From contig JAGAAS010000053.1 in the NCBI GenBank assembly GCA_017615125.1, positions 1 through 47,288 on the forward strand: a stretch of 47,288 bases of DNA. The letters run 5' to 3'. This document shows, one piece after another, positions 6,970 to 47,010 of this stretch (its first letter is position 1; every line of letters begins with the position of its first letter). The notes under the pieces are model-generated. The model worked only from the letters and a program-made list of their open reading frames with translations, ran no database searches and had not been told where the DNA came from. Both the position numbers and the translations under genes were made by a program. The DNA comes from Bacteroidaceae bacterium. GTDB lineage: Bacteria > Bacteroidota > Bacteroidia > Bacteroidales > Bacteroidaceae.

Positions 6970-6975
6970 ACGTTG

Positions 6976-27519: not shown

Positions 27520-27530
27520 TCATATTGTAT

Positions 27531-27650
27531 CTTTGACTTCGGAGGTTGCTCAACGCGTTGGGTAACCTTGCTCAACGCGTTGGGTAACCTTGCTCAACGC
27601 GTTGAGCAATCCCCAATCAAAAGGAAGCTGCAGCAAATGCAGTTTCCCTT
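27531..27650. repeat. Triple-palindrome element, copy A
   Basis: After CTTTGACTTC come three exact copies of the 10-bp palindrome CAACGCGTTG at 27551, 27573 and 27595, each exactly 22 bp apart. The last is part of the 16-bp palindrome GCTCAACGCGTTGAGC. Outer arms GGTTGCTCAACGCGTTG and CAACGCGTTGAGCAATCC are complementary at all but one position. A second stem-loop follows (27623-27647, GGAAGCTGCA / TGCAGTTTCC). It lies between convergent gene ends. Confidence 0.85.
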
Positions 27651-29273: not shown

Positions 29274-29317
29274 AGATAGGATTTATTGTATTTTTCCGAT
29301 TAGCGTAATTGTCTTTG

Positions 29318-29347
29318 CAAAGTTACTCCTTTTTAAATAATATGCAA
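29318..29347 (-). promoter_or_regulatory. Promoter of the BspA-like gene
   Basis: Minus strand: TTG (29345-29347), a 19-bp spacer, TAacTTTG (29318-29325). The start codon is 45 bp downstream. Confidence 0.75.
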
Positions 29348-29420
29348 GCGTTGAAGTGCAGAATTGCCGAAAACGGAAAAACAATTCATCAGGAAGTAGA
29401 GAGATACGGAGAACTTTTTG

Positions 29421-29428
29421 TAAATTTG
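29421..29428 (+). promoter_or_regulatory. -7 box of the acyltransferase gene
   Basis: TAaaTTTG, an exact -7 match, with the ATG at 29437 only 8 bp beyond it. The transcript would start within a few bases of the start codon. Confidence 0.6.
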
Positions 29429-29436
29429 TCCCCAAT

Positions 29437-30612
29437 ATGACAAAGGACAACAATACCTATCTCGCATCGAAGCCCCGATATGAGATTCTCGACGGACTGC
29501 GCGGAGTGGCTGCCTTGCTGGTGGTAGCCTATCACTTGTTTGAGACCTATTACAGCGGAAAGCCGAACCAGCCGATTAATCACGGCTACCTGGCTGTCGA
29601 TTTCTTCTTCGTCCTTTCAGGCTTTGTGATTGGCTATGCCTACGACGACCGTTGGGACAAGATGTCAACGTGGGCTTTTTTCAAGCGCCGACTGATACGC
29701 TTGCATCCGATGGTTATCTTCGGCACCCTGTTCGGAGCCTTGATGTTCTACTTCGGCAGCAGTCCTTCGTTCCCGCTTATCGGGCAGACCCCCTGGTGGA
29801 TGGTGCTGGTAGTGATGCTCTGGTGCTTCACGCTCATCCCGCTGCCTCACACGATGGACATCCGAGGCTGGGCGGAAACAAATCCGTTAAACGGCCCTGC
29901 CTGGTCGTTGCAATGGGAATATCTGGCAAACATCCTCTATGCGCTTGTTTTCCGCAAGCTGTCAAAGAGGGCATTAGGTATCTGCGTAGCCTTCTTTGCC
30001 GTATTGACTATCATGCTTTGCCTGAACATCGACTTGTTTGGACTCCTTGAGGAGCGCAATTGGGCTTCCTACACCGTTGTTGGCGGCTGGAGCACCACAC
30101 CAGGCCAGTTGCAGGTAGGCCTCACCCGTCTGCTCTATCCCTTCTTCTGCGGATTGCTTGTCTCGCGTGTGGGTAAGCTGATTAAGGTGAAGGGGGGCTT
30201 CTGGTGGTGCTCGCTGATGATAGTCGTCCTTCTTTGCATGCCTTGGATGGGACTTGGCACCGAGGGCGAGAGCCGTTGGACGAACGGACTCTACGAGGCT
30301 TTCTGCATCCTCGTCTGCTTCCCCCTCATCGTAGCGATGGGTGCCGGCAGCAGCGTGAAGGGCGGCAAGTCGGAAGCTATCAACCGTTTCCTCGGCGAGA
30401 TTTCATTTCCTCTTTATATTACGCATTATCCGCTCATCTACATGCAGATGGCGTGGGTGGAAAGTCACAAGGATGCGCCGTTGAGTATGCACATCTTCGT
30501 AGCTGTCAGCATCTTCCTGCTTTCCATCTTCGTGGCATACGGAGCCTACAAGCTCTACGACCTGCCCGTTCGCGAGTGGCTGAAGAAGAAATTGTTCAAA
30601 CAACGGAATTAG
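29437..30612 (+). CDS. Acyltransferase 3 family membrane protein (OafA-like)
   Basis: A 391-residue integral membrane enzyme that transfers an acetyl or other acyl group to sugars of surface glycans. The N-terminal signature YEILDGLRGVAALLVVAYHL contains the DGLRG motif and the conserved His. It is followed by HGYLAVDFFFVLSGFVIGYA and the RRLIRLHPM arginine segment; about ten transmembrane helices follow. The start at 29437 is preferred to a GTG at 29356 because the latter is upstream of the -7 box. No glycan-synthesis gene is adjacent, so the acceptor is unknown. The family call is firm. Confidence 0.92.
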   Translation: MTKDNNTYLASKPRYEILDGLRGVAALLVVAYHLFETYYSGKPNQPINHGYLAVDFFFVLSGFVIGYAYDDRWDKMSTWAFFKRRLIRLHPMVIFGTLFGALMFYFGSSPSFPLIGQTPWWMVLVVMLWCFTLIPLPHTMDIRGWAETNPLNGPAWSLQWEYLANILYALVFRKLSKRALGICVAFFAVLTIMLCLNIDLFGLLEERNWASYTVVGGWSTTPGQLQVGLTRLLYPFFCGLLVSRVGKLIKVKGGFWWCSLMIVVLLCMPWMGLGTEGESRWTNGLYEAFCILVCFPLIVAMGAGSSVKGGKSEAINRFLGEISFPLYITHYPLIYMQMAWVESHKDAPLSMHIFVAVSIFLLSIFVAYGAYKLYDLPVREWLKKKLFKQRN

Positions 30613-30671
30613 GAATACAATCCTATAGCGCCATCTCTTCTAAGATTGGGAGAAATGATGGTGAATTATTC

Positions 30672-30775
30672 CTTTTGGGGAGAAACGATATTCTTTTTCG
30701 AAAAAAGTTTTTCGAGAAGGAATCTCGCCGTATGAAGAAAGAATCTCGCGAGATGAAGAAAGAAAAAATTTTTGC
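30672..30775 (+). repeat. Dispersed A/T-rich repeat, copy 4
   Basis: Contains TTTTTCGAGAAGGAATCTCG, then CCGTATGAAGAAAGAATCTC, and a second, variant unit GCGAGATGAAGAAAGAAAAA. The same core occurs in copy 3. The lead-in (TTATTCCTTTTGGGGAGAA) resembles that of copy 5. Confidence 0.7.
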
Positions 30776-30845
30776 TTAACTTTCGCTCGTTAGAGTTTAA
30801 CTTCGTCGCGTTAGAGTTTAACTTTAGCGCGCTAGAGTTAAACTA
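30776..30845. repeat. Triple 21-bp unit element
   Basis: Three head-to-tail 21-bp units, each starting TTAACTT and ending TTAGAGT or CTAGAGT, at 30776, 30797 and 30818, followed by TAAACTA. The middle bases differ but keep a GCG/CGC-rich core. The third is nearly palindromic (AACTTTAGCGCGCTAGAGTT). The plan matches the triple-palindrome copies A-C, with different sequence. Confidence 0.75.
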
Positions 30846-30910
30846 TTTTCACCCACAATTTTTTTAGTGAAAAAAATATCAAACAACTTTCTTCTTTCAC
30901 AGAAAGTGAT

Positions 30911-30918
30911 TATCTTCG
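30911..30918 (+). promoter_or_regulatory. -7 box of the NagB-like gene
   Basis: TAtcTTcG, one base from TAnnTTTG, 37 bp before the start codon. Confidence 0.5.
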
Positions 30919-30954
30919 CGAATTAAAACTAACTATCATCATTTCTACATATCT

Positions 30955-32889
30955 ATGAAAAGCAAGTACAAACTTCCGCAAGAGGGCGGGCTGATTACTG
31001 CAGGTGTGCCAAGTGACATTATCTGCCGGTACGAAAAAGTTCCCACACAGATTTTTGCCGACGAATACGACGGCGTGACATACGTTGCCAACAAGATTGT
31101 CGAGGCTATCAAAGAACATGAGTCGGAGCAGCCCGACAAGCTGTTTGTCCTGGGATTGGCTACAGGACGTACTCCTCTGGGGCTCTACAGCGAGCTGGCT
31201 GCCCGCTATAAAAGAGGCGAAGTAAGCTTCCGCCACGTAGAAGTTTACACGCTTGACGAATTCTACCCCATCTCGCCGGGACATCATCAGAGCCGTTGCT
31301 ACCGTCTGCACGAGGATTTCCTTAATATGGTCGACATCGACCCGAAGAACGTGCACATCCCCGACGGCACAATTCCCATTGAGAAAGTCTCGGAATACTG
31401 CCGCGAATACGGACACGAAGCCAAGAGCAAGATGGACCTCATGATTATGGGCGTTGGCGAGCAAGGACAGCTGGGATTCAACGAGCCGGGCTCGTATGCC
31501 AAGTCGAAGACACGCCTTGTGCAGCTCAGCTACCACTCGGTGAAGACACAGATGAAGTTCTTCTCCTCCGTCAAGGAAGTGCCAAAGATGGCCATCACGA
31601 TGGGTATCGACACCATTATGCGAGCAAAGCGCATCATCCTCATGGCCTGGGGCGAGGACAAGGCTCCCGTCGTGAAACAGATTGTTGAGGGGGAAGTCAG
31701 CGAGAACATCCCTGCTACCATCCTTCAGGAGCATCCCGACATAGAAGTCATTGTCGACGACTTCGCGGCAAGCGAGCTGGCTCGCATGCAGACCCCCTGG
31801 CTGGTAGGCCCTTGCGACTGGAGTCGCAAGCTCATCCGCAAGGCTGTCATCTGGCTCAGCGACACCGTACAGAAGCCAATCCTCAAGCTCACGCTTCAGG
31901 ACTACCTGCAGCATTCGCTCATCGAGATGCTCGACAAACTCGGCAAGACCTTCGACCAAGTGAACATCGAAGTCTTCAACGACCTTCAGCACACCATCAG
32001 CGGATGGCCCGGAGGGAAGCCTAATGCCGACGACTCCACGCGTCCTGTCAGTTCAACGCCCTATCCCAAGCGCGTGCTTATCTTCTCGCCCCACCCCGAC
32101 GACGATGTCATCTCGATGGGAGGAACCTTCTGCCGTCTTATCGAGCAAAAGCACGACGTGCACGTAGCCTATGAAACGAGCGGCAACGTGGCTGTCTACG
32201 ACGACGTTGTCATACAAAATCTCGACACAGCCCGCGAAATGGGATTGGGCGACAGAGTAGAAGAAATCCGTGCTATCATCGACAGCAAGGTGGAGGGACA
32301 GCCCGAGCCACGCGAGCTTCTCAACATCAAGGGAGCTATCCGTCGCGCCGAGGCTCGCGCTGCAGACCGTAGCATCGGGCTGAACGACAGGACAAATGTG
32401 CACTTCCTAAACTTGCCGTTTTATGAAAGCGGTACAATTAAAAAAGGAGAGCTGGGTGAACGCGACATCCGCATCATCGTCGACCTGCTCCACAGCATCA
32501 AGCCTCATCAAATTTATGCTGCAGGAGACCTTTCCGACCCGCACGGCACACACCGCGTATGCATCGAGGCAGTACTCGGAGCGATGGATGAGGTGAAAGA
32601 CGAAGACTGGGCGAAGGAATGCCACATCTGGCTCTATCGCGGTGCTTGGCAGGAATGGGAGCTCGGGATGGTTGATATGGCTGTTCCGCTTAGCCCCGAT
32701 GAACTCGTCAAGAAACGTCATGCTATCTTCCGCCACCTTTCGCAGAAAGACATCGTTCCTTTCCCGGGTGAAGACCAGCGCGAATTCTGGCAACGTGCCG
32801 AAGAGCGTACCCAGCATACGGCTAAGCATTACGACGAGCTCGGACTGCCTGAATACCAGGCTATTGAAGTCTTTGTCCGTATGAAATAA
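30955..32889 (+). CDS. NagB-like/PIG-L fusion protein
   Basis: A 644-residue protein: N-terminal glucosamine-6-phosphate deaminase-like domain (about 1-290), linker, then a PIG-L/LmbE-like deacetylase domain (about 370-640) with SPHPDDDVISMGG and SDPHGTHR as zinc-site motifs. In the NagB half the substrate loop ATGRTPLGLY and Asp101 (TLDEFY, the Asp72 equivalent) are kept. The usual G-N-D-G-H-I-A-F-N-E-P stretch reads GEQGQLGFNEP, so the equivalents of Escherichia coli Asp141 and His143 are Gln170 and Gln172, while Glu177 is retained. Ordinary deaminase activity is therefore doubtful. Long fused forms are common in Bacteroidetes and usually annotated nagB. A LOG-family gene follows 46 bp later. 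Confidence 0.9.
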   Translation: MKSKYKLPQEGGLITAGVPSDIICRYEKVPTQIFADEYDGVTYVANKIVEAIKEHESEQPDKLFVLGLATGRTPLGLYSELAARYKRGEVSFRHVEVYTLDEFYPISPGHHQSRCYRLHEDFLNMVDIDPKNVHIPDGTIPIEKVSEYCREYGHEAKSKMDLMIMGVGEQGQLGFNEPGSYAKSKTRLVQLSYHSVKTQMKFFSSVKEVPKMAITMGIDTIMRAKRIILMAWGEDKAPVVKQIVEGEVSENIPATILQEHPDIEVIVDDFAASELARMQTPWLVGPCDWSRKLIRKAVIWLSDTVQKPILKLTLQDYLQHSLIEMLDKLGKTFDQVNIEVFNDLQHTISGWPGGKPNADDSTRPVSSTPYPKRVLIFSPHPDDDVISMGGTFCRLIEQKHDVHVAYETSGNVAVYDDVVIQNLDTAREMGLGDRVEEIRAIIDSKVEGQPEPRELLNIKGAIRRAEARAADRSIGLNDRTNVHFLNLPFYESGTIKKGELGERDIRIIVDLLHSIKPHQIYAAGDLSDPHGTHRVCIEAVLGAMDEVKDEDWAKECHIWLYRGAWQEWELGMVDMAVPLSPDELVKKRHAIFRHLSQKDIVPFPGEDQREFWQRAEERTQHTAKHYDELGLPEYQAIEVFVRMK

Positions 32890-32935
32890 GCGTGACTCAA
32901 CAATAACTTTCATTCAACTCTTTGAACACTAGCCA

Positions 32936-34048
32936 ATGAAACGCTACCCATACCGAGAAGTCAACACTATCGAGTCTCTTCCCGAGCCAGCTACGGGCAC
33001 CAACATGATTGTCCACTATGTATTCCAATACATCGACTTCAATGAGGTTCCCTGGTATGCCGAAGAAAACTCCTTCATCGACTGTTGCTTCCTCGGGTGC
33101 ACACTTGTGCCGGGAATGGACCGACGCTTTGAGTCGTGCCTCGTCCTTCCTCGGATGAACATGCTCTACCGCGCCTTTGTCAACGAACTTTATAGCGGAG
33201 ACACGCTTTATCAAGGCTTTGACCCTGAGCACGAAGAGACGTTCGACAACTGTTTCGATACCCGCGTCTATACTCAGTACCTCGACCAAGGGAAGCGCTG
33301 CGACGACATTCGCGTCACCCTTGGGCGCGCGCTGCACGATCACTCTATCAGCGATGCGATGAACGACTTCCTTGAGCATTACAATCCGCGCGATGTCGTT
33401 GCCATTATGGGAGGACACAACCTTCACCGTACCGATAAGTTCTTCGAGAATATCGTGCGCATCAGCAAAGCCCTCACGGAAAAGGGGAAGCTGATGGTTT
33501 CGGGCGGAGGGCCAGGCGCTATGGAGGCAACTCATCTTGGCGCGTGGCTTGCGGGGAAACCCGACGAAGTCGTTGACGATGCTCTTCAGATGCTTTCAGT
33601 AGCTCCAACGTTCCGCGATAGTCATTGGCTGCAAAGCGCCTTCCAAGTACGCGCCAAGTATCCGCAGACGCGATACCATAGTCTCGGCGTGCCTACCTGG
33701 CTCTACGGACACGAGCCCTCCACGCCCTTTGCTACCGAAATTGCCAAATATTTCGAGAACGCTATCCGCGAAGACAACCTCCTTGCTATTGGAGCAGGAG
33801 GCATTATCTATACGCCTGGGGCAGCAGGAACTCTGCAAGAAGTGTTCCAGGATGCAGCCCAGAATCATTATGAAACAGTAGGCGACCCAAGTCCGATGGT
33901 CTTTTTCGGCATTGACTACTATACGCACGAAGTACCCATCTATCCCCTGCTTCAAGATCTTCTGCAGCGTGGGAAATACCAGAACCTCATGCTCTCCATT
34001 ACCGACAGCCCGCAGGAAGTCATCGACATCCTAATGGCTGAAAACTGA
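32936..34048 (+). CDS. LOG-family nucleotide-binding (Rossmann) protein
   Basis: A 370-residue protein whose second half is a Rossmann-fold LOG domain: VVAIMGGHN, then SGGGPGAMEATHLGAWLAG (about 187-205) and TPGAAGTLQEVFQ, equivalent to the PGGxGTxxE active-site motif of nucleotide monophosphate phosphoribohydrolases. Such enzymes split AMP-type nucleotides into base and ribose phosphate. This larger form with an extra 150-residue N-terminal region is not characterised as far as I know. It follows the NagB-like gene closely and is probably in its operon. Cytosolic. Confidence 0.85.
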   Translation: MKRYPYREVNTIESLPEPATGTNMIVHYVFQYIDFNEVPWYAEENSFIDCCFLGCTLVPGMDRRFESCLVLPRMNMLYRAFVNELYSGDTLYQGFDPEHEETFDNCFDTRVYTQYLDQGKRCDDIRVTLGRALHDHSISDAMNDFLEHYNPRDVVAIMGGHNLHRTDKFFENIVRISKALTEKGKLMVSGGGPGAMEATHLGAWLAGKPDEVVDDALQMLSVAPTFRDSHWLQSAFQVRAKYPQTRYHSLGVPTWLYGHEPSTPFATEIAKYFENAIREDNLLAIGAGGIIYTPGAAGTLQEVFQDAAQNHYETVGDPSPMVFFGIDYYTHEVPIYPLLQDLLQRGKYQNLMLSITDSPQEVIDILMAEN

Positions 34049-34135
34049 CTTTTCAGAGGATCTTCTCAGAAGGAAAGACTAATCCGGCATTCGGTAAGGC
34101 AGGTTTTCGGAACGAGTACAAGAACAAGAATAATT

Positions 34136-34214
34136 TTGAAGAAAGAATAATTCTTTTGGGAGAAGGGAAAAATAATTATGGAGAAGGGAAAAAAATTTTT
34201 CCCTTCTCCATAAT
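34136..34214 (+). repeat. Dispersed A/T-rich repeat, copy 5, ending in a 40-bp palindrome
   Basis: Begins GAAGAAAGAATAATTC, then GGGAGAAGGGAAAAATAATT. It ends in ATTATGGAGAAGGGAAAAA, two A, and the exact reverse complement (34175-34214). It lies between the 3' ends of convergent genes and may act as a bidirectional terminator. Confidence 0.7.
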
Positions 34215-34281
34215 TTCATATCACAAAAGAACGGCTAAATAAGCCTAGCAATAATGATTTCGTCTTTTGAGAGCCAGAGAA

Positions 34282-36960
34282 TCAAAGTACGGGAGTTCCT
34301 GCGCTCGTCAAGCCTTCGGCAGAGATGACGGGATGCGTGGGAGTGCCGTTGTTATAGAAAAGAAGATGTGCCTGGCCTTGAGCGTCTGTTTCAACCGAAG
34401 GATTCCAATAAAGTGTACGACGATAATCCTTGTCTCCGGGAATAGGCCCGTCGGGATACTCGGGAGCATAGAACTCAGTTACTTCGCTATATCCGCGGAA
34501 GGTAGTCTGTCGCGTACCTTTTGTACGTGTCTTCCGCTCGGTAAGAGGATACATGCTGATGTCTATAACATAAAGTCCAGCGGGAACGGGCGTTCCATCA
34601 GATAGTGTTTTCCTCTTTCGGAGTTCTTCCAACTGCTCGACGGTAAGCGTCTCGCGCACGATGGGCATACTCTCAAAAATGGTAGGACTATCATAAACAA
34701 TGATGCTCTTAATATCCTCCATATCCATATCAAAGCCGGGAATGTAGGCTGTTGTAGCAAGATTGCGGTGCTCATCGTGAAGATACCAGAGAACTCGATG
34801 ATTATTGAGAAGGCACTGATCTAACGTCCAGGAAATGAATTCATCGCGAGTCGTAATGGAAGAATCAACCACACCATCGTAACGGCTCACGTCCAGATCG
34901 TATCCTTTCTCCTTCAGATAGTCGGCAACCTTATAAGTAAAACGCCCGCAGTCGAGCTGGTACTCGGTATCCTCTTCGGCATCAAACGCCTTGAATGTCA
35001 TATAGTCAATATACTTGCGATTGCCTTCCACTTCCACTTCATCGAGATGAAATACCAAATCGGTATTGGCCTGCTGCATCCACTCGGGTACTGGTTTCTG
35101 GGGTGCATCATCGTCAAGCGAGAGCGTAGCATATTCAGGAAGGAAAAGCTCGGTAGGCACGTAGGCACGCGGCGCAGGACGATCGGCACGATCGAGACGC
35201 AAACGAACATCAACGGGTTCGTTCTTATGCTTGGCAGTAAGGAACATATCCCAAATGCTGTCGAAGTCTTCTACCGCAAAGCCGAAGCGTCCCTCAGCGT
35301 CGGTAACAACCGTGCTTTGCTGCGAGAACTGTCTGTCGCGCGAATAGAGCTTCATCGTGAGCGAAGCGCCAGCAAGAGGTTTGCCCGTACGTCTCGTCAG
35401 CATCACGCCGTCAAGCACGAGGCCGTTTTCCACATAATGCTTTATGGTGAATGGCTCCACCATACTCATCTGACGCCAGTTGTAGCGTGTCCACCCTTGC
35501 GTCATCATAAGGAGATCAAGGGATTGCCTATGGAGACGGTCCTTACTCTCAAAATACCATTCAGGCTGGTTGATGAACCCTTTCAGCTCCGACGAGAGGA
35601 GCAGGTTAGTCAGCATATTGTCTTGATAAGCTGTGCCTAAGTTCTGTCCATCCCGTACGGCAACGGAAAGATTTGTCTGCAAAGGCTTTCCATAGACATC
35701 GGTTGCAGAAAGCTGCAGATTGATTGGATCAAAGGGCTGATAGACTCGTTTGTCGGAGGTGACGTCTACATGCGCCGAAGAGATTCCGTTGTTTATGAAA
35801 GCCATCCGCTGAGCCAACACCTCCCCTTCTTCCGTAAAGAGGGTAAGCTGATGAACTCCTGTCGGGAGATCATCACTTGGAATAGCAAATGTTGTCTGAA
35901 GCAAGGAAGCATCCTCGACGGAAGGCACCAACCGGAGAGAATCGAAATAGCAGGCAATGCCCCTGCACATAAGCGAGACTCCAATGAGCGGAGTCGTTTG
36001 CTTTCGCGATGCCTTCATCGAAAGCCTTCCGCGCAGCGAGAGGGAGTCGGAGGCGTCAACGAGGAGCGTGCTTCCTGTGCTGAGCGCTTCCGGCAAGCGG
36101 AAGGAATAGGTTTTCCCTTCGTATACGATATTGACTACGTGGCGCTTGCGCGTCGGGGTGAACGAAAAATATCCCATTCCGTCGTGCAGAGTTGTAAGCA
36201 ACGCCAAGTCGTCTCCTTCTCCTTTCTCATCTTTTACTGTGCCCAGAACGGGGATTCCCTGCCCTTTCTCATCAACCGCCTTGAAGGCAACGCGACAAGA
36301 CAACCCCTGCACGAGGTTTCCCCCCTCGGGATAGAAGGTTACATTTACCTTTTGTTCCTTTTCCTGCTTGGGGCGATTGGTTGTCACCCAAGGAGCGATG
36401 CTTGCATTGAGCACAGGATTCTCGTAGTTGCCCTCCTCCTTCGGAGCCTCGTAGACGGGGAACACGCGCGAGAAGATACCCTGCTCGCCAAAGTTGAGCA
36501 TATTCATCGTGTAGGCCCTCACTTCGTAGTATCCGCTCGGATAGCTGAGCACTCCGCGCAACTCGCGTGCCTCCTGCGTGGAACGGTCGACAAGGGGGAA
36601 GGAGCCGTGACATCTTCCGTCAACAACCTTGAGCTTCAATTGATTCAGGAGAACTCCCGTCGGAGACATCAAGTCAACATAGAGCACTCGGCTTGGTGCC
36701 GGCTGCCCAGTAGAAGCATTGATGACCCAAGCAGAAAACCAAATGACATCGCCCTGAAAATAGGCCGTGTTGTCGAAATGAAGGTACACCTTTTCCTGGG
36801 GGCACTTCTGGTTGAAGACAGAAGTCTTATATACATAGGAATAGAGCTTCTTGAAGGTGTCTTTATCACTCTGCGCAAAGGCAGAAGCGACTGCTGTCAT
36901 CAGACATAGAAGCGTGATGAGACAACGACGGACAGTTGTGTTGGAATGCATATTCATCAT
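34282..36960 (-). CDS. Large secreted MG2/carboxypeptidase-regulatory-like protein
   Basis: About 892 residues with a signal peptide (hydrophobic LITLLCLMTAVASAFAQ). The N-terminal region has an MG2-type macroglobulin domain (EKVYLHFDNTAYFQGDVIWF, about 55-75 of the mature numbering) and further beta-rich domains. Near residue 530 lies a carboxypeptidase-regulatory-like domain (GVMLTRRTGKPLAGASLTMK, then TDAEGRFGF). The C-terminal 250 residues are a domain common to these Bacteroidota cell-envelope proteins. Function is unknown; an extracellular or outer-membrane place is likely. A start at 37014 was rejected because a -7-like box (37006-37013) lies there. Its promoter sits at the 3' end of tadA. 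Confidence 0.75.
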   Translation of the reverse strand: MMNMHSNTTVRRCLITLLCLMTAVASAFAQSDKDTFKKLYSYVYKTSVFNQKCPQEKVYLHFDNTAYFQGDVIWFSAWVINASTGQPAPSRVLYVDLMSPTGVLLNQLKLKVVDGRCHGSFPLVDRSTQEARELRGVLSYPSGYYEVRAYTMNMLNFGEQGIFSRVFPVYEAPKEEGNYENPVLNASIAPWVTTNRPKQEKEQKVNVTFYPEGGNLVQGLSCRVAFKAVDEKGQGIPVLGTVKDEKGEGDDLALLTTLHDGMGYFSFTPTRKRHVVNIVYEGKTYSFRLPEALSTGSTLLVDASDSLSLRGRLSMKASRKQTTPLIGVSLMCRGIACYFDSLRLVPSVEDASLLQTTFAIPSDDLPTGVHQLTLFTEEGEVLAQRMAFINNGISSAHVDVTSDKRVYQPFDPINLQLSATDVYGKPLQTNLSVAVRDGQNLGTAYQDNMLTNLLLSSELKGFINQPEWYFESKDRLHRQSLDLLMMTQGWTRYNWRQMSMVEPFTIKHYVENGLVLDGVMLTRRTGKPLAGASLTMKLYSRDRQFSQQSTVVTDAEGRFGFAVEDFDSIWDMFLTAKHKNEPVDVRLRLDRADRPAPRAYVPTELFLPEYATLSLDDDAPQKPVPEWMQQANTDLVFHLDEVEVEGNRKYIDYMTFKAFDAEEDTEYQLDCGRFTYKVADYLKEKGYDLDVSRYDGVVDSSITTRDEFISWTLDQCLLNNHRVLWYLHDEHRNLATTAYIPGFDMDMEDIKSIIVYDSPTIFESMPIVRETLTVEQLEELRKRKTLSDGTPVPAGLYVIDISMYPLTERKTRTKGTRQTTFRGYSEVTEFYAPEYPDGPIPGDKDYRRTLYWNPSVETDAQGQAHLLFYNNGTPTHPVISAEGLTSAGTPVL

Positions 36961-37005
36961 ATCGGAATAATCAGTTAAGTTTTTGTTTGTCAAAAAGGCT
37001 TGCCG

Positions 37006-37013
37006 CAAAGACA
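37006..37013 (-). promoter_or_regulatory. Weak -7 box of the MG2-like gene
   Basis: Minus strand TGtcTTTG, one base from the consensus, about 46 bp before the ATG at 36960 and just past the tadA stop codon. Confidence 0.4.
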
Positions 37014-37017
37014 CTTC

Positions 37018-37449
37018 TCAACGACGCAATTGAAAGAACTCCTTCATCAGAGCTGCACATTCGTCAGCCAGAACTCCCGCAACGACATCGGTTTTCGGAT
37101 GAAGCGCGGCGGGTGCAAAGCGTTGGAATCCGCGTTTCTCGTCCTCAGCACCGTATACTATACGGGAAATCTGCGACCATCCAAGCGCGCCGGCGCACAT
37201 CACGCAAGGCTCGACGGTAACATAAAGCGTGCACTCCGTCAGATACTTCCCGCCCAGATAGTTCGAAGCAGACGTGAGCGCGAGCATTTCGGCGTGAGCC
37301 GTAACATCCGTCAGCCGCTCCGTCTGGTTATGTGCACGCGCTATGATACGTTCCTGACAGACGACAACCGCCCCCACAGGAACCTCGCCCTCACTATAAG
37401 CCACACGGGCCTCCTGAAGGGCTTGGCGCATGTAATACTCATCGTTCAT
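37018..37449 (-). CDS. tadA: tRNA adenosine deaminase-type nucleoside deaminase
   Basis: A 143-residue cytidine-deaminase-fold enzyme. His52-Ala-Glu54 and Pro81-Cys82-x-x-Cys85 (VEPCVMCAGAL) form the zinc site and proton-shuttle Glu, as in TadA, which makes inosine at the wobble position of tRNA-Arg(ACG). Length fits TadA. A guanine or cytosine deaminase function is less likely but not excluded by motifs alone. The start overlaps the end of the upstream ribbon-helix-helix gene by four bases (ATGA type), so the two are coupled. Confidence 0.88.
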   Translation of the reverse strand: MNDEYYMRQALQEARVAYSEGEVPVGAVVVCQERIIARAHNQTERLTDVTAHAEMLALTSASNYLGGKYLTECTLYVTVEPCVMCAGALGWSQISRIVYGAEDEKRGFQRFAPAALHPKTDVVAGVLADECAALMKEFFQLRR

Positions 37450-37679
37450 CGGCGCATATCATGCTCATCGAAAAGCGTGGGATAGTCAATCTCCAGGTTT
37501 CGAAGGATGAACTGAAGTAATGTCTCGCGCATCCAGCGGCTCTTGTTCGTGATGTGGTACTTACGAAGGTAGTGATCTACCATCTGCACCTCCTCCTCAC
37601 TCATGAGCGTGATGAGCCGATGCGAACGTGCCGACTTCGGATGCCGTTCAAACGGAATCTTTTCTTTCTTCTTTGCCAT
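37446..37679 (-). CDS. Small ribbon-helix-helix-like DNA-binding protein
   Basis: A 77-residue basic protein. A basic N-terminus (MAKKKEKIPFERHPKSARS) precedes the RHH pattern: beta strand HRLITLMS, helix EEEVQMVDHYLRKYHI and helix TNKSRWMRETLLQFILRNLE. Such proteins bind DNA as dimers. The start at ATG 37679 is preferred to a GTG at 37688 because that GTG lies within the -7 promoter box. tadA overlaps its 3' end. An inverted repeat surrounds its own -7 box, which suggests autoregulation, but this is untested. The fold is inferred from pattern only. Confidence 0.7.
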   Translation of the reverse strand: MAKKKEKIPFERHPKSARSHRLITLMSEEEVQMVDHYLRKYHITNKSRWMRETLLQFILRNLEIDYPTLFDEHDMRR

Positions 37680-37681
37680 AA

Positions 37682-37702
37682 TTGTCACAAAAATAGTGAC
37701 AA
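37682..37702. promoter_or_regulatory. Inverted repeat enclosing the -7 box (candidate operator)
   Basis: TTGTCAC (37682-37688) and GTGACAA (37696-37702), perfect 7-bp arms separated by seven bases. The -7 box of the RHH-tadA promoter occupies the spacer. It is a good candidate binding site for a dimeric repressor, perhaps the RHH protein itself. Confidence 0.6.
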
Positions 37703-37718
37703 CAAAGAAGAAAACAAA
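37688..37718 (-). promoter_or_regulatory. Promoter of the RHH-tadA operon
   Basis: Minus strand: -33 TTTG (37715-37718), a 19-bp spacer, -7 TAttTTTG (37688-37695), an exact match at both elements. The ATG is 8 bp after the -7 box, so the transcript is nearly leaderless. Confidence 0.8.
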
Positions 37719-37810
37719 ATATTATGCAACAAAAAAACAGGAAACAGCCTTTTTTAGACAATTATACAGAATGTGTTGCAAAGGGTATACTTTTCCCTTG
37801 CTGTTTTTTT

Positions 37811-37946
37811 CTTTAACTTCGGGGGTCGATCAACGCGTTGTCACACCTCGATCAACGCGTTGGTAGACCTCGATCAACGCGTTGATCGACCCCCCTTGTA
37901 AAACAACCCTCCAGGAGCATTTGCTGAGAATGCTCCAACTTCGCTT
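37811..37946. repeat. Triple-palindrome element, copy B
   Basis: CTTTAACTTC, then CAACGCGTTG at 37831, 37853 and 37875 (22-bp period). Outer arms GGGGGTCGATCAACGCGTTG (37821-37840) and its exact reverse complement (37875-37894) form a 20-bp perfect inverted repeat around the middle unit. A stem-loop follows (GGAGCATT / AATGCTCC, 37914-37936), then AACTTCGCTTG. It lies upstream of the RHH-tadA operon and after the permease gene. Confidence 0.9.
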
Positions 37947-37966
37947 GATGTCAAATCGTTGACTCT

Positions 37967-39211
37967 TTATTCAAACTGGAGAACGCGGGAGGGATATATC
38001 TTCGAAACCAACTGCGAAGGGATGATAAGCATCGCTACCGAAGCCACAAGCATCCCCACGTTAAGCAGAATGAGCAAGGGCCAGTTGAACTCGATGGGCA
38101 CGCAGTCGAGGTAGTAGTTCTTCGGATCGAGGGGGATAAGTCCCGTGAACTTCTGGATGGCGCACAGCCCCAAGCCGATGATATTTCCCCAGAGCATTCC
38201 TCGCCCGATAATGTAGGCCGAGAGCCAAAGGAACACTTTGCGGATAGACACATTGGGAGAGCCGAGAGCCTTCAGGACTCCGATGAACTGAGTCTTTTCA
38301 AGGATAAGTATCAGCAAGCCAGAGATGACCGTAAAGCCCGCTACGCCCAGCATAAGCAGAAGAATGACCCAGACATTGACGTTAAGGACATCGAGCCACG
38401 CAAAAAGGTTAGGATTCTGTTCCTCAATGGTCTGAACGAAGTACGAAGTGCTATGAGCATTTCCATACTCGTCCAACATCCTGCCGATTTCGTAAGAACG
38501 GAGCGAGAGTTCGTCATAATCGTCTATCCCTATCTCAACGCCAGCCACTTCGGTACTATCCCATCGGTTGAGTGACTGAACAGCCCCCAAGTCGGTAAGA
38601 GCAAACAGCTCGTCGAAGTCACCGAATCCTGTATCGTAGATTCCGCATACCGTCAGGCGACGAGCGCGAATCGTATTCTCAATAAAATAGGTTTCCAACC
38701 TGTCGCCCACATGGATGTCGAGCTTGTCAGCCATTATGCGCGAGACTAACACCTGATTGCCTTTTTGTGCATGCAGCACGCTATCGACAGAGCCTTCTTT
38801 CAGATAGTCAGCAAAGAAAGAAAAGTCGTATTCCTCTCCCACTCCTTTCAGCACGAAGCCCAAGAATTCGTCTCCTACCCTGAAAAGGCCGGGCTTGGTT
38901 GCATAACGCTGCACTCGCTCCACGCCTTCCATAGCAGAAAGGAGAGAGCAAAGCGAATCGTCGGCGACTATAGGAGTCGACTCATACGATGTAGCCGATT
39001 CAAAGCTGCTCACGTGAATATGGCTGTTGAAACCGATAACCTTTGAGCGTATTTGATGCTTGAAGCCCAGCGAAACGCAAATGGTAATAATCATAACGCA
39101 CAAGCCCAGCGCGACGCCTGCCTCAGCAATGATGACAGCAGGGCGCGACACACGACGATTGTTCTTCTCGCTTTTGTGAAGTCGCCGGGCTAAGAAGCGT
39201 TCAAGGTTCAT
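37967..39211 (-). CDS. FtsX/LolC-E-like ABC transporter permease
   Basis: A 414-residue inner-membrane protein: one N-terminal transmembrane helix (VIIAEAGVALGLCVMIITIC, about 26-45), a large periplasmic domain (about 55-270) and three C-terminal helices (WVILLLMLGVAGFTVISGLL and two near the end). This is the MacB/FtsX-type layout of lipoprotein-release permeases. No ATPase is adjacent, so the partner must be encoded elsewhere. The aminotransferase gene lies 32 bp upstream, probably in the same transcript. LolE-like lipoprotein release is the best guess. Confidence 0.85.
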   Translation of the reverse strand: MNLERFLARRLHKSEKNNRRVSRPAVIIAEAGVALGLCVMIITICVSLGFKHQIRSKVIGFNSHIHVSSFESATSYESTPIVADDSLCSLLSAMEGVERVQRYATKPGLFRVGDEFLGFVLKGVGEEYDFSFFADYLKEGSVDSVLHAQKGNQVLVSRIMADKLDIHVGDRLETYFIENTIRARRLTVCGIYDTGFGDFDELFALTDLGAVQSLNRWDSTEVAGVEIGIDDYDELSLRSYEIGRMLDEYGNAHSTSYFVQTIEEQNPNLFAWLDVLNVNVWVILLLMLGVAGFTVISGLLILILEKTQFIGVLKALGSPNVSIRKVFLWLSAYIIGRGMLWGNIIGLGLCAIQKFTGLIPLDPKNYYLDCVPIEFNWPLLILLNVGMLVASVAMLIIPSQLVSKIYPSRVLQFE

Positions 39212-39243
39212 ACAAACGTCAGACGGAAGAATTCAGACGAATA

Positions 39244-40443
39244 CTACTCCACGCGCCCAGGATAAGCCTCAAGCGCTTTCCCGAGCACAAACAATGCTCG
39301 CTGGAGGTCTTCCTTCTTCAGCACATAAGCCATACGGACTTCGTTCTTCCCCAGTTCCGGAGTCGTGTAGAAGCCCGAAGCAGGAGCCATCATTACCGTC
39401 TCGCCTTCATAGTTAAAGTCCTTCAAGCACCAGGCACAAAACTTTTCGGCATCGTCAACCGGCAACTTGGCTACAGTATAGAAAGCGCCCATCGGGATAG
39501 GACTATAAACTCCGGGAATACGATTAAGCCCGTCGATAAGGCACTTACGACGCTCTACATACTCGTCGTAATTCTCGCGTTCGTACTCTTCGCCCGCATC
39601 GAGAGAAGCTTCCGCAGCTATCTGTCCTATCAGAGGAGGGCTCAGACGAGCCTGACAGAATTTCATCACAGCCTGCCGAACGGCTTCGTTCTTTGTGATA
39701 AGCGCGCCTATACGAATACCGCATTCGCTATAACGCTTCGATACGGAATCAATCAGCACAACATTATTCTCGATGCCCTCCAGATGACAAGCACTAATAT
39801 AAGGAGAACCCGTATAGATAAACTCCCGGTATACTTCGTCCGAGAAAAGATACAAGTCGTATTTCTTTACCAAATCCCGAATCCGGTTCATCTCTTTGCG
39901 AGTGTAGAGATAGCCCGTAGGATTGTTGGGATTGCAAATAAGAATGGCTTTGGTACGCTCGTTGATTAATTCCTCAAATTTCTCAACCTTCGGTAGGCAG
40001 AAGCCTTCGTCAATCGTCGTCGTAACGGTGCGGATGATAGCTCCAGCCGAAATAGCGAATGCCATATAGTTGGCATAGGCTGGTTCGGGAGCGATAATCT
40101 CATCGCCTGGATTCAAGCAAGCGAGGAAAGCGAACAAAACAGCTTCCGAACCTCCCGTCGTAACGATGATATCGTCGGCTGTGACAAAGATGTTGTACTT
40201 TGCATAATACTTGACGAGCTTCTCCCTATAGCTACGATAGCCTTGCGAAGGACTATACTCAAGGACTTGCCTGTCGATATTACGAATAGCATCGAGAGCC
40301 GCCTGAGGCGTCGGAAGGTCAGGCTGACCGATATTCAATCTATAGACTTTAACACCGCGTTCTTCGGCAGCATAAGCCAAAGGGGCAAGCTTGCGGATAG
40401 GTGATGCGGGCATCAAGGTACCTCGTTCTGATATCTGGGGCAT
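39244..40443 (-). CDS. PLP-dependent class I/II aminotransferase
   Basis: A 399-residue fold-type I aminotransferase. The N-terminal MPQISERGTLMPASPIRKLA is typical of Bacteroidota members. YRLNIGQPDLPTP, the cofactor pocket VTTGGSEAVLFAF, ICNPNNPTGYLYT and the PLP-Lys motif SVSKRYSECGIRIG are all present. It probably transfers an amino group between an amino acid (aspartate or a branched or aromatic one) and 2-oxoglutarate; the substrate cannot be read from the sequence. It is the first gene of a two-gene unit with the permease and has its own promoter. Confidence 0.92.
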   Translation of the reverse strand: MPQISERGTLMPASPIRKLAPLAYAAEERGVKVYRLNIGQPDLPTPQAALDAIRNIDRQVLEYSPSQGYRSYREKLVKYYAKYNIFVTADDIIVTTGGSEAVLFAFLACLNPGDEIIAPEPAYANYMAFAISAGAIIRTVTTTIDEGFCLPKVEKFEELINERTKAILICNPNNPTGYLYTRKEMNRIRDLVKKYDLYLFSDEVYREFIYTGSPYISACHLEGIENNVVLIDSVSKRYSECGIRIGALITKNEAVRQAVMKFCQARLSPPLIGQIAAEASLDAGEEYERENYDEYVERRKCLIDGLNRIPGVYSPIPMGAFYTVAKLPVDDAEKFCAWCLKDFNYEGETVMMAPASGFYTTPELGKNEVRMAYVLKKEDLQRALFVLGKALEAYPGRVE

Positions 40444-40496
40444 AAAGGAATGTTGTTAGATACTTCTAAACAATTAAAATAAACTCTCTCTCGTTG

Positions 40497-40504
40497 CAAA
40501 AATA
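40497..40504 (-). promoter_or_regulatory. -7 box of the aminotransferase gene
   Basis: Minus strand TAttTTTG, an exact match, 53 bp before the start codon. Confidence 0.6.
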
Positions 40505-40609
40505 CAACAAAAAAACCATATCTAAAACGAACAACCTCACATTTTACAGATATTTGTCATAGCAGGCAGATTATTATTCAACTTTGCAAAAAAATAGAAG
40601 GAGTTACGT

Positions 40610-40640
40610 TTTGTTCTGCAAACGGAATAGTGTATCTTTG
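40610..40640 (+). promoter_or_regulatory. Promoter of the DUF4494 gene
   Basis: -33 TTTG (40610-40613), a 19-bp spacer, -7 TAtcTTTG (40633-40640), exact at both elements. The ATG at 40668 is 27 bp further on. Confidence 0.8.
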
Positions 40641-40667
40641 CACCTAGAAAACAATAAAGAAACATCT

Positions 40668-41099
40668 ATGCAAAACGAATGGTTTGAGTCGAAGATTGAA
40701 TACGACAAATTGACAGAAGACGGCACCCCAAAACGGGTAAAAGGCGAAAGCTATCTGGTGAACGGCATCAGCTGTTCCGAAGTGGAGAGAAGGATGACGC
40801 ACGAGATGAAGTCGTACATAAGTGGCGAATTCATGGTAACCGACATCAAGCGTGTCAAATACGGAGAGTTGGTGTTTACAGATGATGAGCTAGCCGATCG
40901 ATACTTCAAGATAAAGCTTGTCTTCATCACTCTTGACGAAAAGACGGCAGCCGAAAAGAAAACACGCCAAGATGTACTCGTGCAGGCATCGGACTTGCGC
41001 AATGCGGTAGTCAGACTTGAAGAGTTCATGAAGGGCTCTATGATGGATTACACGATTGCTTCCGTACGAGAAGCACCCTATATGGATGTTTTCAAATAA
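40668..41099 (+). CDS. DUF4494-family protein
   Basis: A 143-residue soluble protein typical of Bacteroidales (DUF4494): starts MQNEWFESKIEYDKL and contains YLVNGISCSEVERRM and the C-terminal YTIASVREAPYMDVFK. There is no signal peptide or known catalytic motif. The start at ATG 40668 was chosen over an upstream in-frame start because a perfect promoter lies inside the extension. The YggS-type gene follows after 57 bp and may be co-transcribed. Function unknown. Confidence 0.85.
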   Translation: MQNEWFESKIEYDKLTEDGTPKRVKGESYLVNGISCSEVERRMTHEMKSYISGEFMVTDIKRVKYGELVFTDDELADRYFKIKLVFITLDEKTAAEKKTRQDVLVQASDLRNAVVRLEEFMKGSMMDYTIASVREAPYMDVFK

Positions 41100-41156
41100 T
41101 ACCTTTTTCCAACAATAGTGTTCTCAGAGTCGTAACTCTACTATCGTCTGCGCGAA

Positions 41157-41825
41157 ATGTCTGTTACAGAAAATCTGCTTTCCATTCGCTCTACCTTACC
41201 TCCCGAAGTCGAGCTGGTAGCAATCTCGAAGTACCATCCTGCCGAGATGATTGCCGAAGCCTACGCTGCAGGACAGCGCTGCTTTGGCGAGAACCATATT
41301 CTTGAAATGGCGGCAAAGGCAGAGGTTCTTCCCAAAGACATCAAATGGCACTTCACAGGACATGTTCAGACAAACAAGATAAAATACATGGCCTCTTTTG
41401 TCGACACCGTGCAAAGCGTTGATTCCATGCGCGTTTTGCAACAACTCGACAAGCACGCAGCCCGCTACGACAGAGTTATCAACTGCCTGCTTCAGCTACA
41501 TGTAGCGCAGGAGGAGTCAAAGTTCGGATTGACGCCCGATGAGTGCTTTTCTCTATTGAGCACAGAACCTTGGAAAGAGCTGAAGCACATCCGCATCACA
41601 GGCCTTATGGCTATGGCGAGCAACACGGAAGACGAAAAGCAGATACGCAAAGAATTCCGAACCGTTTACTCGCTATTCCTCAAAATCAAGGAAACATTCT
41701 TTGCCGACGACCCTCACTTCCGTATTTTATCCGAAGGAATGACACAGGACTATCCGATTGCCGTTAGCGAAGGAGCCAATATGGTACGCATCGGAAGCGC
41801 AATATTCGGAGAAAGAAGCTACTGA
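41157..41825 (+). CDS. YggS/PLPBP-family pyridoxal-phosphate-binding protein
   Basis: A 222-residue cytosolic protein that binds pyridoxal phosphate on a single-domain barrel and helps keep PLP and amino acid pools balanced. The PLP Lys is in LVAISKYHP. GENHILEMAAKAE, WHFTGHVQTNKIKYM, SKFGLTPDE and the C-terminal SEGMTQDYPIAVSEGANMVRIGSAIFG are diagnostic. No enzymatic reaction is known for the family. It follows the DUF4494 gene, and triple-palindrome copy C lies 53 bp after its stop. Confidence 0.95.
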   Translation: MSVTENLLSIRSTLPPEVELVAISKYHPAEMIAEAYAAGQRCFGENHILEMAAKAEVLPKDIKWHFTGHVQTNKIKYMASFVDTVQSVDSMRVLQQLDKHAARYDRVINCLLQLHVAQEESKFGLTPDECFSLLSTEPWKELKHIRITGLMAMASNTEDEKQIRKEFRTVYSLFLKIKETFFADDPHFRILSEGMTQDYPIAVSEGANMVRIGSAIFGERSY

Positions 41826-41876
41826 CAGAGCCGCAACACTTCATCTCAAAAAGCAGGATCTCTCCTTATCATTTTT

Positions 41877-42016
41877 TCTTTGACTTCATGGGTTACCCAA
41901 CGCGTTGGGTAAGGTTGCTCAACGCGTTGGGTAACCTTGCTCAACGCGTTGAGCAACCCCCATTGAAAAACACTCGCTCAGAAGTGTCAGCAAAAGAGTT
42001 GCTTTGACTTCGCTTG
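41877..42016. repeat. Triple-palindrome element, copy C
   Basis: CAACGCGTTG at 41898, 41920 and 41942, again 22 bp apart; the last is GCTCAACGCGTTGAGC. CTTTGACTTC occurs both just before (about 41878) and after (42002-42011) the element. Short stems (ACACT/AGTGT, GCAA/TTGC) follow the palindromes. It lies between convergent gene ends. Confidence 0.88.
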
Positions 42017-42034
42017 GAGCCAGAGAGTATTAAA

Positions 42035-43678
42035 TCAATTATACAGGAATCGCTTGATACTCTTCTTTGGAGTCTTCTCAAATTCTTCTGCCTGAATAAC
42101 GAACTCCGATATCTGCGAATAAGAAGGAAGTGCGTCGTTGAGCTTCTTGCGATTCTCTTCCATCAAGGCAGGAAGGTCTTTTTCTGTGTATTCTGTATTT
42201 GTAAACTGGTCAAAATCAGGGAATACCAATGCAACGAGTTTTCCATTCCTGTCGATAACAAGCGACTCGGAAACGAATGGATAGTTGTTCAGTTTATCTT
42301 CAATCTCCTCGGGGTAAATGTTCTGCCCGTTGGCGCTAAGCAGCATATTCTTGCTACGTCCTTTGATATACAGTCGCCCATCGGCGTCCATAATGCCAAG
42401 ATCTCCCGTATGGAACCAGCCATCAGCGTCGATAGACTCCCGCGTTAGTTCTTCATTCTTGTAGTAGCCCAGCATAACATTCTTTCCTCGGCATAGTATC
42501 TCTCCCACTACTTGGGAAGGATCGGGGCTGTCGATTCGTACCTCCATATTGATTACAGGTTTTCCGCAACTTCCAGGAACGGTACTCTTCCAATCTTCAT
42601 AACAGATGATCGGAGCACACTCGGTAGCTCCATATCCTACCGTATAAGGGAAACGAATAGAATGGAGGAACTGATCGATCTCCTGATTAAAGGCAGCTCC
42701 GCCAATGATTACCTCGTAGAATTCTCCTCCAAACGAACGCATCATTTGATCGCGCACATTCTTGCGTACTGCATCGTTCACGATAGGCATACGGAGAAGC
42801 ATTTTCATAGGAAGAGTTTCAAGCTTTGGAAGAACCATCTTCTTGATTACCTTCTCAATGATAAGAGGAACAGCAACAATGATATTTGGTTTTACGTCGT
42901 TGAAGGCATTAAAGATGATTTTCGGGCTGGGAGTGCGCGTCAGGAGAAAGACGTGAGCTCCTACCGTCATCTCGTAAAGAAACTCGAAAGCCATTCCGTA
43001 CATATGCGCCATAGGAAGCATCGACACAACCTTGTCGCCTGCATTCAAGAGTACTACTCCATAGGCAAACTCCACATTTGACGAAAGAGCGCGATAAGGA
43101 ATCATTACCCCTTTGGAAAATCCCGTTGAGCCCGACGTATAATTGATAATTGCCAAATCTTCTTCATCGGGTGTCGGATAATGAATGTCTTCCGGAGTGA
43201 ATCTGGATGGATATTTCTGTCCGAAAAGCTCGTTCAGATGAGCACGAGCATAATCCAGACGCTCATCGCGCGACTCAAGGATAGAGAAATCATTGATCTG
43301 AACAACACCAAGCACTCCCGGAATAGCATCAGGAAGAAGGCCTTCCCAGATTTGGTCACTTACGAAGACAAGTTTCGGATCTGAATGGTTGATAATGTTG
43401 TGTATGTTATCGGGCTTAAACTCGTGAAGAATGGGTACAGCAACGGCTCCGTAGGTAATCGTAGCAAGGAACGCTACTCCCCAGTTGGAACTGTTACGTC
43501 CACAAAGCGCTATCTTATCGCCCCTCTCGATGCCTATCTGCTCGAACATGATATGCAGTTTCTCTATCTTGCGGGCAACATCCTTATATTGAAGAGTAGT
43601 GCCTTTATAGTCAGTAAGTGCATCCAAAGTCCAGTTACGACGAAGACTCACTTCCAACATTTGAATAATCCCTTCCAT
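42035..43678 (-). CDS. AMP-binding acyl-CoA ligase
   Basis: A 547-residue ANL-superfamily enzyme that activates a fatty acid with ATP and joins it to CoA. It has the P-loop INYTSGSTGFSKGVMIPY (about 174-191), GYGATECAPI, the WFHTGDLG motif and GRSKNMLLSANGQNIYPEE (A8/A10 region with the hinge). Length fits long-chain fatty acid-CoA ligases, but chain length cannot be read. No membrane segment is obvious. The start ATG is preceded by a rare SD-like AAAGGAG about 6 bp upstream, plus a -7 box (43708-43715). Confidence 0.93.
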   Translation of the reverse strand: MEGIIQMLEVSLRRNWTLDALTDYKGTTLQYKDVARKIEKLHIMFEQIGIERGDKIALCGRNSSNWGVAFLATITYGAVAVPILHEFKPDNIHNIINHSDPKLVFVSDQIWEGLLPDAIPGVLGVVQINDFSILESRDERLDYARAHLNELFGQKYPSRFTPEDIHYPTPDEEDLAIINYTSGSTGFSKGVMIPYRALSSNVEFAYGVVLLNAGDKVVSMLPMAHMYGMAFEFLYEMTVGAHVFLLTRTPSPKIIFNAFNDVKPNIIVAVPLIIEKVIKKMVLPKLETLPMKMLLRMPIVNDAVRKNVRDQMMRSFGGEFYEVIIGGAAFNQEIDQFLHSIRFPYTVGYGATECAPIICYEDWKSTVPGSCGKPVINMEVRIDSPDPSQVVGEILCRGKNVMLGYYKNEELTRESIDADGWFHTGDLGIMDADGRLYIKGRSKNMLLSANGQNIYPEEIEDKLNNYPFVSESLVIDRNGKLVALVFPDFDQFTNTEYTEKDLPALMEENRKKLNDALPSYSQISEFVIQAEEFEKTPKKSIKRFLYN

Positions 43679-46784: not shown

Positions 46785-46794
46785 CCCGAAAAAG

Positions 46795-46900: not shown

Positions 46901-47010
46901 ATGGGCTTCCCAAAAGGTATTCTATTCAATGTACCGACATACACACAGACCAGTCCGGCAGCAAACGAGCGCGCTCCGCAAACCGAACGTATACTCCGCC
47001 CACAGAGGCG

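Follow-up and report, generated by a model that had tools for sequence, protein, structure and literature searches.

Copy B and its place in the window

The DNA analysed, hereafter the window, is a stretch of 47,288 nucleotides that constitutes contig 11 of a Bacteroidaceae genome (3.03 Mb in 107 contigs, 87% complete). It aligns with a contig of the rumen MAG 'Paludibacteraceae bacterium RGIG7568' at 97.1% identity over 8 kb. Three copies of a repeat element, A, B and C, are found in the window. A BspA-type LRR gene (LRR_5, E 6e-114) with codon usage unlike that of its neighbours adjoins copy A at 27747-29273 on the reverse strand. Elsewhere, also on the reverse strand, positions 6901-6971 match the Bacteroidetes paralogous sRNA family FopS in Rfam (65.9 bits), a long, terminator-like palindrome with GAGAAGGGAAAAATTTTTTTCCCTTCTC lies at 34174-34215, and the contig ends at 46792-47288 with a 5S rRNA and the 3' end of a 23S rRNA gene. 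The parts of the three copies are as follows.

37755..37962, forward strand: copy B, whole element of about 208 bp, the segment without counterpart in the orthologous gap of the related genome G005 (own gap 208 bp, G005 gap -5 bp, flanks aligned)
37804..37820, forward strand: copy B leader, a T-tract plus TTTAACTTC (consensus TTTTTTTCTTTGACTTC), from leader scoring across 38 arrays
37821..37840, forward strand: copy B left 20-bp arm, consisting of GGGGGT, the 4-base arm CGAT and core 1; from the sequence, complementary to 37875-37894
37831..37840, no strand assigned: copy B core 1, CAACGCGTTG, from the sequence and a shuffle test
37853..37862, no strand assigned: copy B core 2, CAACGCGTTG, on the same basis
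37875..37884, no strand assigned: copy B core 3, CAACGCGTTG, on the same basis
37875..37894, forward strand: copy B right 20-bp arm, consisting of core 3, ATCG and ACCCCC, from the sequence
37895..37962, forward strand: copy B tail, an A-rich start followed by a segment common to other copies, from tail alignment and pairwise extents
27530..27540, forward strand: copy A leader, TCTTTGACTTC, from the sequence and the leader motif
27551..27604, forward strand: copy A array of three cores at 22 bp with alpha spacers, from the sequence and spacer typing
41872..41887, forward strand: copy C leader, TTTTTTCTTTGACTTC, from the sequence and the leader motif
41898..41951, forward strand: copy C array of three cores at 22 bp with alpha spacers and non-complementary outermost arms, from the sequence and spacer typing

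A first-pass annotation of this DNA had described copy B as three palindromes at an exact 22-bp period with 20-bp perfect arms, and it was right on both points. The core CAACGCGTTG starts at 37831, 37853 and 37875, a period of exactly 22 bp, and the arms GGGGGTCGATCAACGCGTTG (37821-37840) and CAACGCGTTGATCGACCCCC (37875-37894) are complementary at 20/20 bp. With up to one mismatch, CAACGCGTTG occurs 14 times in the window; 100 shuffles give 1.61 occurrences on average and never more than 6.

The plan of copy B is repeated in copies A (27551) and C (41898). In copy A the left flank is TTGCT and the right flank AGCAA, and there is a mismatch further out. The left flank of copy C is TTACC, against AGCAA on the other side, which leaves its outermost arms unmatched. 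The GCTC/GAGC reading previously given for both copies thus holds for A and not for C. In the predicted fold of copy C, core 1 pairs with itself and cores 2 and 3 pair together. The RNA folds predicted for the three copies are very stable: z is -7.18 and -6.67 for copy B (one value per strand), -8.10 for copy A and -8.34 for copy C; the DNA fold of copy B has a z of -6.63. Over 111 bp, copy C of strain RGIG7568 shows no difference. Copy B, which lies beside a contig end there, differs at 5/114 positions, and 3 of its 38 array positions are changed (two in the middle core, one in a spacer).

A family dispersed between genes

Are the three loci alone in the genome? The first-pass annotation had let its claim of a family depend on this. 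The whole genome contains 72 exact pairs of CAACGCGTTG at 22 bp, which make up 38 arrays with at least one exact pair, and a reversed control pattern gives no match in the same genome. Three units are present in 31 arrays, two in 6 and five in 1; half of the two-unit arrays (3/6) are within 25 bp of a contig end. A search with the leader motif (TTTTTCTTTGACTTCNNGGGT, up to two mismatches) gives 38 matches, 31 at the 38 arrays and 7 elsewhere. Five of these 7 bear at least part of a core: at L196, L217 and L218 a core, complete or truncated, stands at a contig end, L203 has one unit and complementary arms, and L212 has three cores with the variants CAACGTGTTG and CAACACGTTG. At L197 and L202 the sequence stops at a contig end before any core, so that every leader match with readable neighbouring sequence has a core. 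The total is about 45 copies between genes (38 arrays and the 7 further leader matches). Three loci was thus too low a number, and the existence of a family is strongly supported. At ten contig ends an array or leader match lies no more than about 35 bp away, and therefore copies are probably undercounted.

The elements are built in a constant order of T-rich leader, array of 22-bp units and tail. The leader consensus is ...ATTC.TTTTCCAT.C..TTTTTTTCTTTGACTTC, followed by GGGGGT and the 4-base arm. The tail consists of a 4-base arm, ACCCCC, TTGAAAAA and then a stretch that includes CTCAGAAGT.TCTG and CTTCGCTTG.CGTCAAA. At 33 of the 38 arrays the leader motif reaches 11/13 or more, and at 20 of them 13/13; similarity between copies is gone by about 105 bp to the left and 100 bp to the right of the array. 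Spacers fall into three vocabularies, termed alpha (GGTAACSTTGCT), beta (e.g. TTAGACCTCGAT) and gamma (GGACACCTTTAT).

None of the 38 arrays lies inside a called open reading frame; three overlap a gene edge, by 2, 2 and 36 bp. By an approximate count, the array gaps are co-directional in 17 cases, divergent in 8 and convergent in 5, with 8 at a contig edge; background gaps of at least 100 bp at the same loci, array gaps included, number 30 co-directional, 16 divergent and 11 convergent. Genes were called with a simple codon-usage caller that misses real genes, such as the LRR gene at 27747-29273. Because this gene was dropped, copy A is counted as co-directional, although it really lies between convergent genes. 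There is no sign of a strong preference for the 3' ends of genes and no convergent bias, and placement is tied to no single class of promoter or gene.

What might such stable predicted folds do? A transcribed hairpin could act at mRNA ends, as terminator or stabiliser, or in 5' leaders. The fold z values and the pairing of outer arms are what this RNA role would call for, and two arrays in sister genomes, L228 (G016) and L233 (G009), come after TATCTTTGCA and before an ATG. We take TATCTTTGCA to resemble the Bacteroidota -7 promoter box, and the two arrays are possibly in 5' leaders. Other evidence points away from RNA. No T-tract follows the stem on either strand, and both strands of copy B are A-rich there. 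A search limited to short loops gives 17 terminator-like sites in 27300-42300, of which none overlaps an array and two are just to the right of that of copy A. Divergent gaps hold 8 of the 30 placed arrays, G-U pairs are rare in the arms (3.4%), and Rfam 15 at gathering scores has 3 matches in the window, none on an array. We consider an RNA element unlikely. An intrinsic terminator was rejected on the stem without a T run, the lack of overlap with predicted short-loop terminators and, by the approximate count of gaps, the lack of preference for sites downstream of genes.

Paired arms and array orientation

The first-pass annotation had proposed that both sides of the element changed together and that such paired change implies selection on the folded form or on binding by a symmetric protein. 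Of the 38 arrays, 37 were compared, the other having a truncated arm. In these 37 the outermost 4-base arms form Watson-Crick pairs at 83.1% and G-U pairs at 3.4% of positions, and 24/37 are perfect. Permuted partners give 57% Watson-Crick (maximum 74%) and 8.4 perfect pairs, and 0/5000 permutations reach the observed values. Unit by unit, pairing of the arms is 74% for the first, 62% for the last and 46% for the middle (0/34 perfect). Co-variation is therefore a property of the array ends and not of every unit, and, as arms of middle cores are unpaired, symmetry is confined there to the 10-bp core. Most perfect pairs are of three inherited types, TGCT/AGCA (10), TTAT/ATAA (7) and CGAT/ATCG (5); these are sub-families that inherited matched arms, and independent events of paired change are thus few. 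A looser test over 14 bases is significant in this genome (35 arrays, 0/2000 permutations). Seventeen non-redundant arrays of G003, G009, G012, G016 and G017 give no significant result (run length p = 0.135, pairs p = 0.47), and neither do 16 arrays of G005 (p = 0.98 and 0.93), where nearly uniform arms give little power. The joint change of both sides can be upheld for the genome at hand, but it does not reach significance in its sisters or in G005.

Does paired change imply that a fold is selected? This does not follow. Arm changes are block-like, with few G-U pairs, and mismatched arms include chimeras of sub-families. Array direction relative to the leader is one way in 14 and the other in 17 of the 33 leader-bearing elements, with 2 mixed, and alpha, beta and gamma spacers each occur in both orientations. 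Some arrays are themselves chimeric, e.g. L095 (gamma then alpha) and L096 (opposed beta spacers). Replication template switching, in the available parts of two papers on it, homogenises the arms of inverted repeats and inverts the spacer, in steps of several bases (PMC8604942, PMC8794818). Since arm homogenisation together with spacer inversion is its mark, the arm co-variation can be explained by mutation, without selection on folding. By analogy, template switching may be the cause of both the matched arms and the flips, and block changes, chimeras and flipped arrays all fit it. The family would then be a bacterial example of compensatory changes that should not be taken to prove a functional fold, given that homogenised arms and inverted spacers of the template-switching kind occur at these very loci.

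An invertible regulatory switch, in which a site-specific recombinase acts on the inverted arms, would also produce arrays that face either way from the leader at random, as observed for each of the three spacer vocabularies. The flipped segment is the array only, with no promoter shown within it, and spacer inversion is already predicted by template switching as the available parts of the same sources describe it (PMC8604942, PMC8794818). A switch is, to our mind, very improbable.

Phase, cores and known systems

Does a relative have arrays at the same places? G005, of which 800 kb were used, is the closest member of the genus by the single gene compared (75% identity). Ten of the 38 loci are matched there on both sides. 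Nine of the ten gaps, that of copy B included, contain no core, nor is there one within 60 bp of them; at about 75% identity such empty gaps fit gain or loss alike, and a target-site duplication is unreadable at this distance. At the tenth, L096, G005 carries a four-unit array with different cores (C23:74859-74934). This is the sole matched gap with arrays in both genomes, and cores and arms differ between them, as would result from either an independent insertion or the replacement of an ancestral array. Several of the G005 gaps matched to loci L070-L106 also contain GAAGAAGGGAAAAA...TTTTTCCCTTCTTC palindromes that resemble the window palindrome at 34174-34215, and some of these adjoin TATCGCGAGA repeats at 21 bp. 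The window palindrome and its G005 relatives look like another dispersed palindrome family.

Closer comparisons come from 6 loci common to G016, G009 and G003, which give 7 orthologue pairs. Changes amount to 0/240 positions in cores, 1/204 in spacers and 95/2032 in flanks (Fisher p against flanks 4e-5 for cores, 0.002 for spacers); the 4-base arms, with 4/56 changed, do not differ from the flanks. The count is biased toward conservation, as loci were found via the core and one locus is in two pairs, and it leaves aside five same-place comparisons (L220/L239, L226/L229, L228/L233, L232/L242 and L239/L245). Conservation of the core between orthologues is accordingly supported but biased by ascertainment. 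In those five comparisons the arrays differ in their entire content, and the flanks resemble each other poorly on one side or both; these arrays have, to judge from the alignments, been replaced or gained anew. At same-place loci of the three genomes, unit number also goes from 3 to 4 and outer arms are altered in two-base clusters.

Other relatives carry other cores. In the 16 G005 arrays read, the cores are CAACACGTTG or CAACGTGTTG save for 4/57 with an altered end base, and all 57 have AC or GT at the centre, which makes them imperfect dyads. Stretches of genus members were also scanned, blind to the core, for repeated 10-bp near-palindromes at any period of 14-40. This finds ACCTRYAGGT in G007, at 22-23 bp and flanked by a leader and tail of its own, ATCCRYGGAT in G007 and G013, an ATTAC type at 21 bp in G007 whose centres are different again, CACCGCGGTG in G013 and G011, and GTTCGCGAAC in G013. 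In the G007 loci L263, L267, L269 and L270, three ACCTRYAGGT units at 22-23 bp stand between a constant leader CTACAGGTCTTGTTTCGAAAG and a tail GCCTAAATTTGCCACCT.YAGGAGG. Arrays of at least three units number 49 (32 of them from this genome, in loci chosen for their arrays), and their cores are CAACGCGTTG, CAACRYGTTG, ACCTRYAGGT, ATCCRYGGAT, CACCGCGGTG, GTTCGCGAAC and the ATTAC type. The mean period is 21-23 in all 49, i.e. near a whole number of helical turns, as in a phased array. Shuffled sequences, at one shuffle per set, give no array, and there is none in 191 kb of G001 or in 50 kb of E. coli.

Core types differ between sets of genomes. CAAC-type pairs, with up to one mismatch, are present in 7/19 genus members, and an exact CAACGCGTTG pair in 5/301 family genomes, all of the same genus; in a class-wide sample of 395 genomes that held no other genus member, the CAAC-type unit is found in this genome only. 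The ACCT family is in 1/19 genus members, with 27 forward matches. CACCGCGGTG pairs occur in 10/399 family genomes and 5/30 genera, with 56 pairs in one genome outside the genus and 1 or 2 in the other three. Among the 19 genus members, no genome falls into more than one of three groups, CAAC (7), CACC (6) and ACCT (1), and 5/19 have none of these cores, by searches that allowed different mismatches and with single genomes holding further cores. CAACGCGTTG and CACCGCGGTG, whose genomes do not overlap in the genus, differ by one paired change per half. Viral contigs have no exact pair of CAACGCGTTG or of CACCGCGGTG. Plasmid matches to copy B, two of 27 bp inside rbsC of Azospirillum (E 0.3), were taken as chance. 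Sequence, unit number and arms appear, across these genomes, free to change, and dyad symmetry and a spacing of about two helical turns do not.

Might the element be purely selfish? It would be a miniature transposable element of the BrickBuilt or BOX sort that encloses a minisatellite; the array would have no host function, its symmetry coming from template switching, its unit number from slippage and its movement from a putative transposase. The dispersed build of leader, array and tail, the G005 gaps without the element and the neutral-looking placement are in keeping with this, as are the change in unit number from 3 to 4 between orthologues and the replacement of arrays at the same place. 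A published parallel exists in BrickBuilt, going by the available part of its description (PMC4596501). Two G013 arrays with different cores, furthermore, have common inverted end motifs (14 and 12 of 15). The 15-bp motif concerned, CAGGGAANACGCATT, bounds as an inverted pair one CACC and one GTTC array of G013; it is found at L284 and L288 of G013 and at L254, L261 and L306 of G001, near arrays that have, between them, three different cores, and the motif also occurs alone, with no array nearby. The elements of the present genome, however, yield no terminal inverted repeats: in 33 of them the best inverted flank 15-mer has a mean of 11.06/15 against 10.83 when permuted, in a test of ungapped 15-mers that short or gapped repeats could escape. 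A purely selfish origin also leaves unexplained why unrelated cores have a 21-23 bp period, and why cores and spacers are fixed while flanks change. We hold it to be possible, if doubtful.

The explanation that we prefer, though it stays somewhat short of probable, is that of phased dyad arrays bound by a protein and carried on dispersed elements. A non-coding, intergenic element, with its leader, array of 22-bp units and tail, would have spread within the genome in the manner of a miniature transposable element, through some putative mobilising enzyme. Its array would offer 10-bp dyads at intervals of about two helical turns, and hence all on the same face of the DNA, to a symmetric, presumably dimeric DNA-binding protein that may occupy it cooperatively. 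Local silencing or anchoring are candidate roles of the occupied array, and so is its recognition by the machinery, whatever it may be, that spreads the element. Complementary outer arms, like random array orientation, would come mainly from replication template switching at a near-palindrome, and not necessarily from selection on folded RNA. As dyad symmetry and the spacing of about two turns persist, a symmetric protein along one face of the DNA is the easiest explanation. Such a protein was the alternative offered in the first-pass annotation, and it gains from the near-fixed 22-bp phase of unrelated dyads and from the 0/240 core changes, biased as that count is. Several observations speak against it: cores are not always perfect dyads (the AC or GT centres of G005, the ATTAC type), placement shows no link to promoter or gene class, arrays are swapped at the five same-place loci, the middle core of copy B is changed at two positions in RGIG7568, and 191 kb of G001 are without an array.

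One can go further, with distinctly more doubt. The arrays may represent an undescribed class of elements in this Bacteroidales family in which only the geometry (10-bp dyads, a phase of about 22 bp, mostly 3-4 units) is conserved, and in which the dyads change in pairs by lineage and the dispersed copies of a genome follow, as sites that co-diversify with a fast-evolving symmetric binder. If so, dozens of intergenic sites per genome would be bound by a protein whose recognition sequence turns over from one related species to another while the spacing does not. This would provide a natural series for the study of co-evolution between a DNA-binding protein and its dispersed targets.

By title among the matches listed, the open-licence literature describes neither a repeat with CAACGCGTTG nor arrays of palindromes in phase whose cores differ by lineage. 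BOX elements of Streptococcus pneumoniae are modular, with boxA, a variable number of boxB and boxC. They share this modular build with the present elements and differ in host and sequence, and to our knowledge phased dyads are no part of BOX; they were set apart by description. Plasmid iterons and operator arrays have repeats of about 17-22 bp in helical phase that bind protein cooperatively. Short repeats in helical phase are the likeness; the elements described here, in contrast, occupy at least 38 scattered chromosomal sites, and a Pfam scan of 10 proteins around the window copies annotated 9, none of them a replication or partition protein.

REP/BIME sequences with their RAYT proteins are likewise many-copy intergenic palindromes with species-specific sequences, as given in the available part of the source, whereas the present elements are fixed-period tandem arrays with leader and tail (PMC3733652). 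Membership was rejected on the RAYT domain Y1_Tnp (PF01797), which has no match in this genome (87% complete) and is absent from 5/6 other CAAC-array genomes, with G012 the exception; it is present in 4/6 CACC-type genomes (G001, G002, G008, G011, G013, G015).

BrickBuilt of Porphyromonas gingivalis is, in the available part of its description, a MITE/minisatellite with 19 dispersed intergenic copies, 23-nt tandem units, IS5-like terminal inverted repeats and up to 22.8 repeats (PMC4596501). On that description the likeness is broad: a Bacteroidales host, dispersed intergenic copies, a leader, tandem array and tail, a similar unit length (23 nt), a unit number that varies between strains, a narrow host range and long predicted stem-loops. 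By eye, its repeat AGAYCATARTATCCTCTCRTRTG is unrelated and has no 10-bp palindrome, whereas the units here are built on CAACGCGTTG, mostly three to an array at a 22-bp phase, with unrelated cores in relatives. The elements were not assigned to BrickBuilt: they have its modular build, without the 23-nt repeat AGAYCATARTATCCTCTCRTRTG as compared by eye or, in the test of ungapped 15-mers, the IS5-like terminal inverted repeats of that partial description. It is the closest published kind that we found, with build and approximate unit length in common, but not sequence, dyad or terminal repeats.
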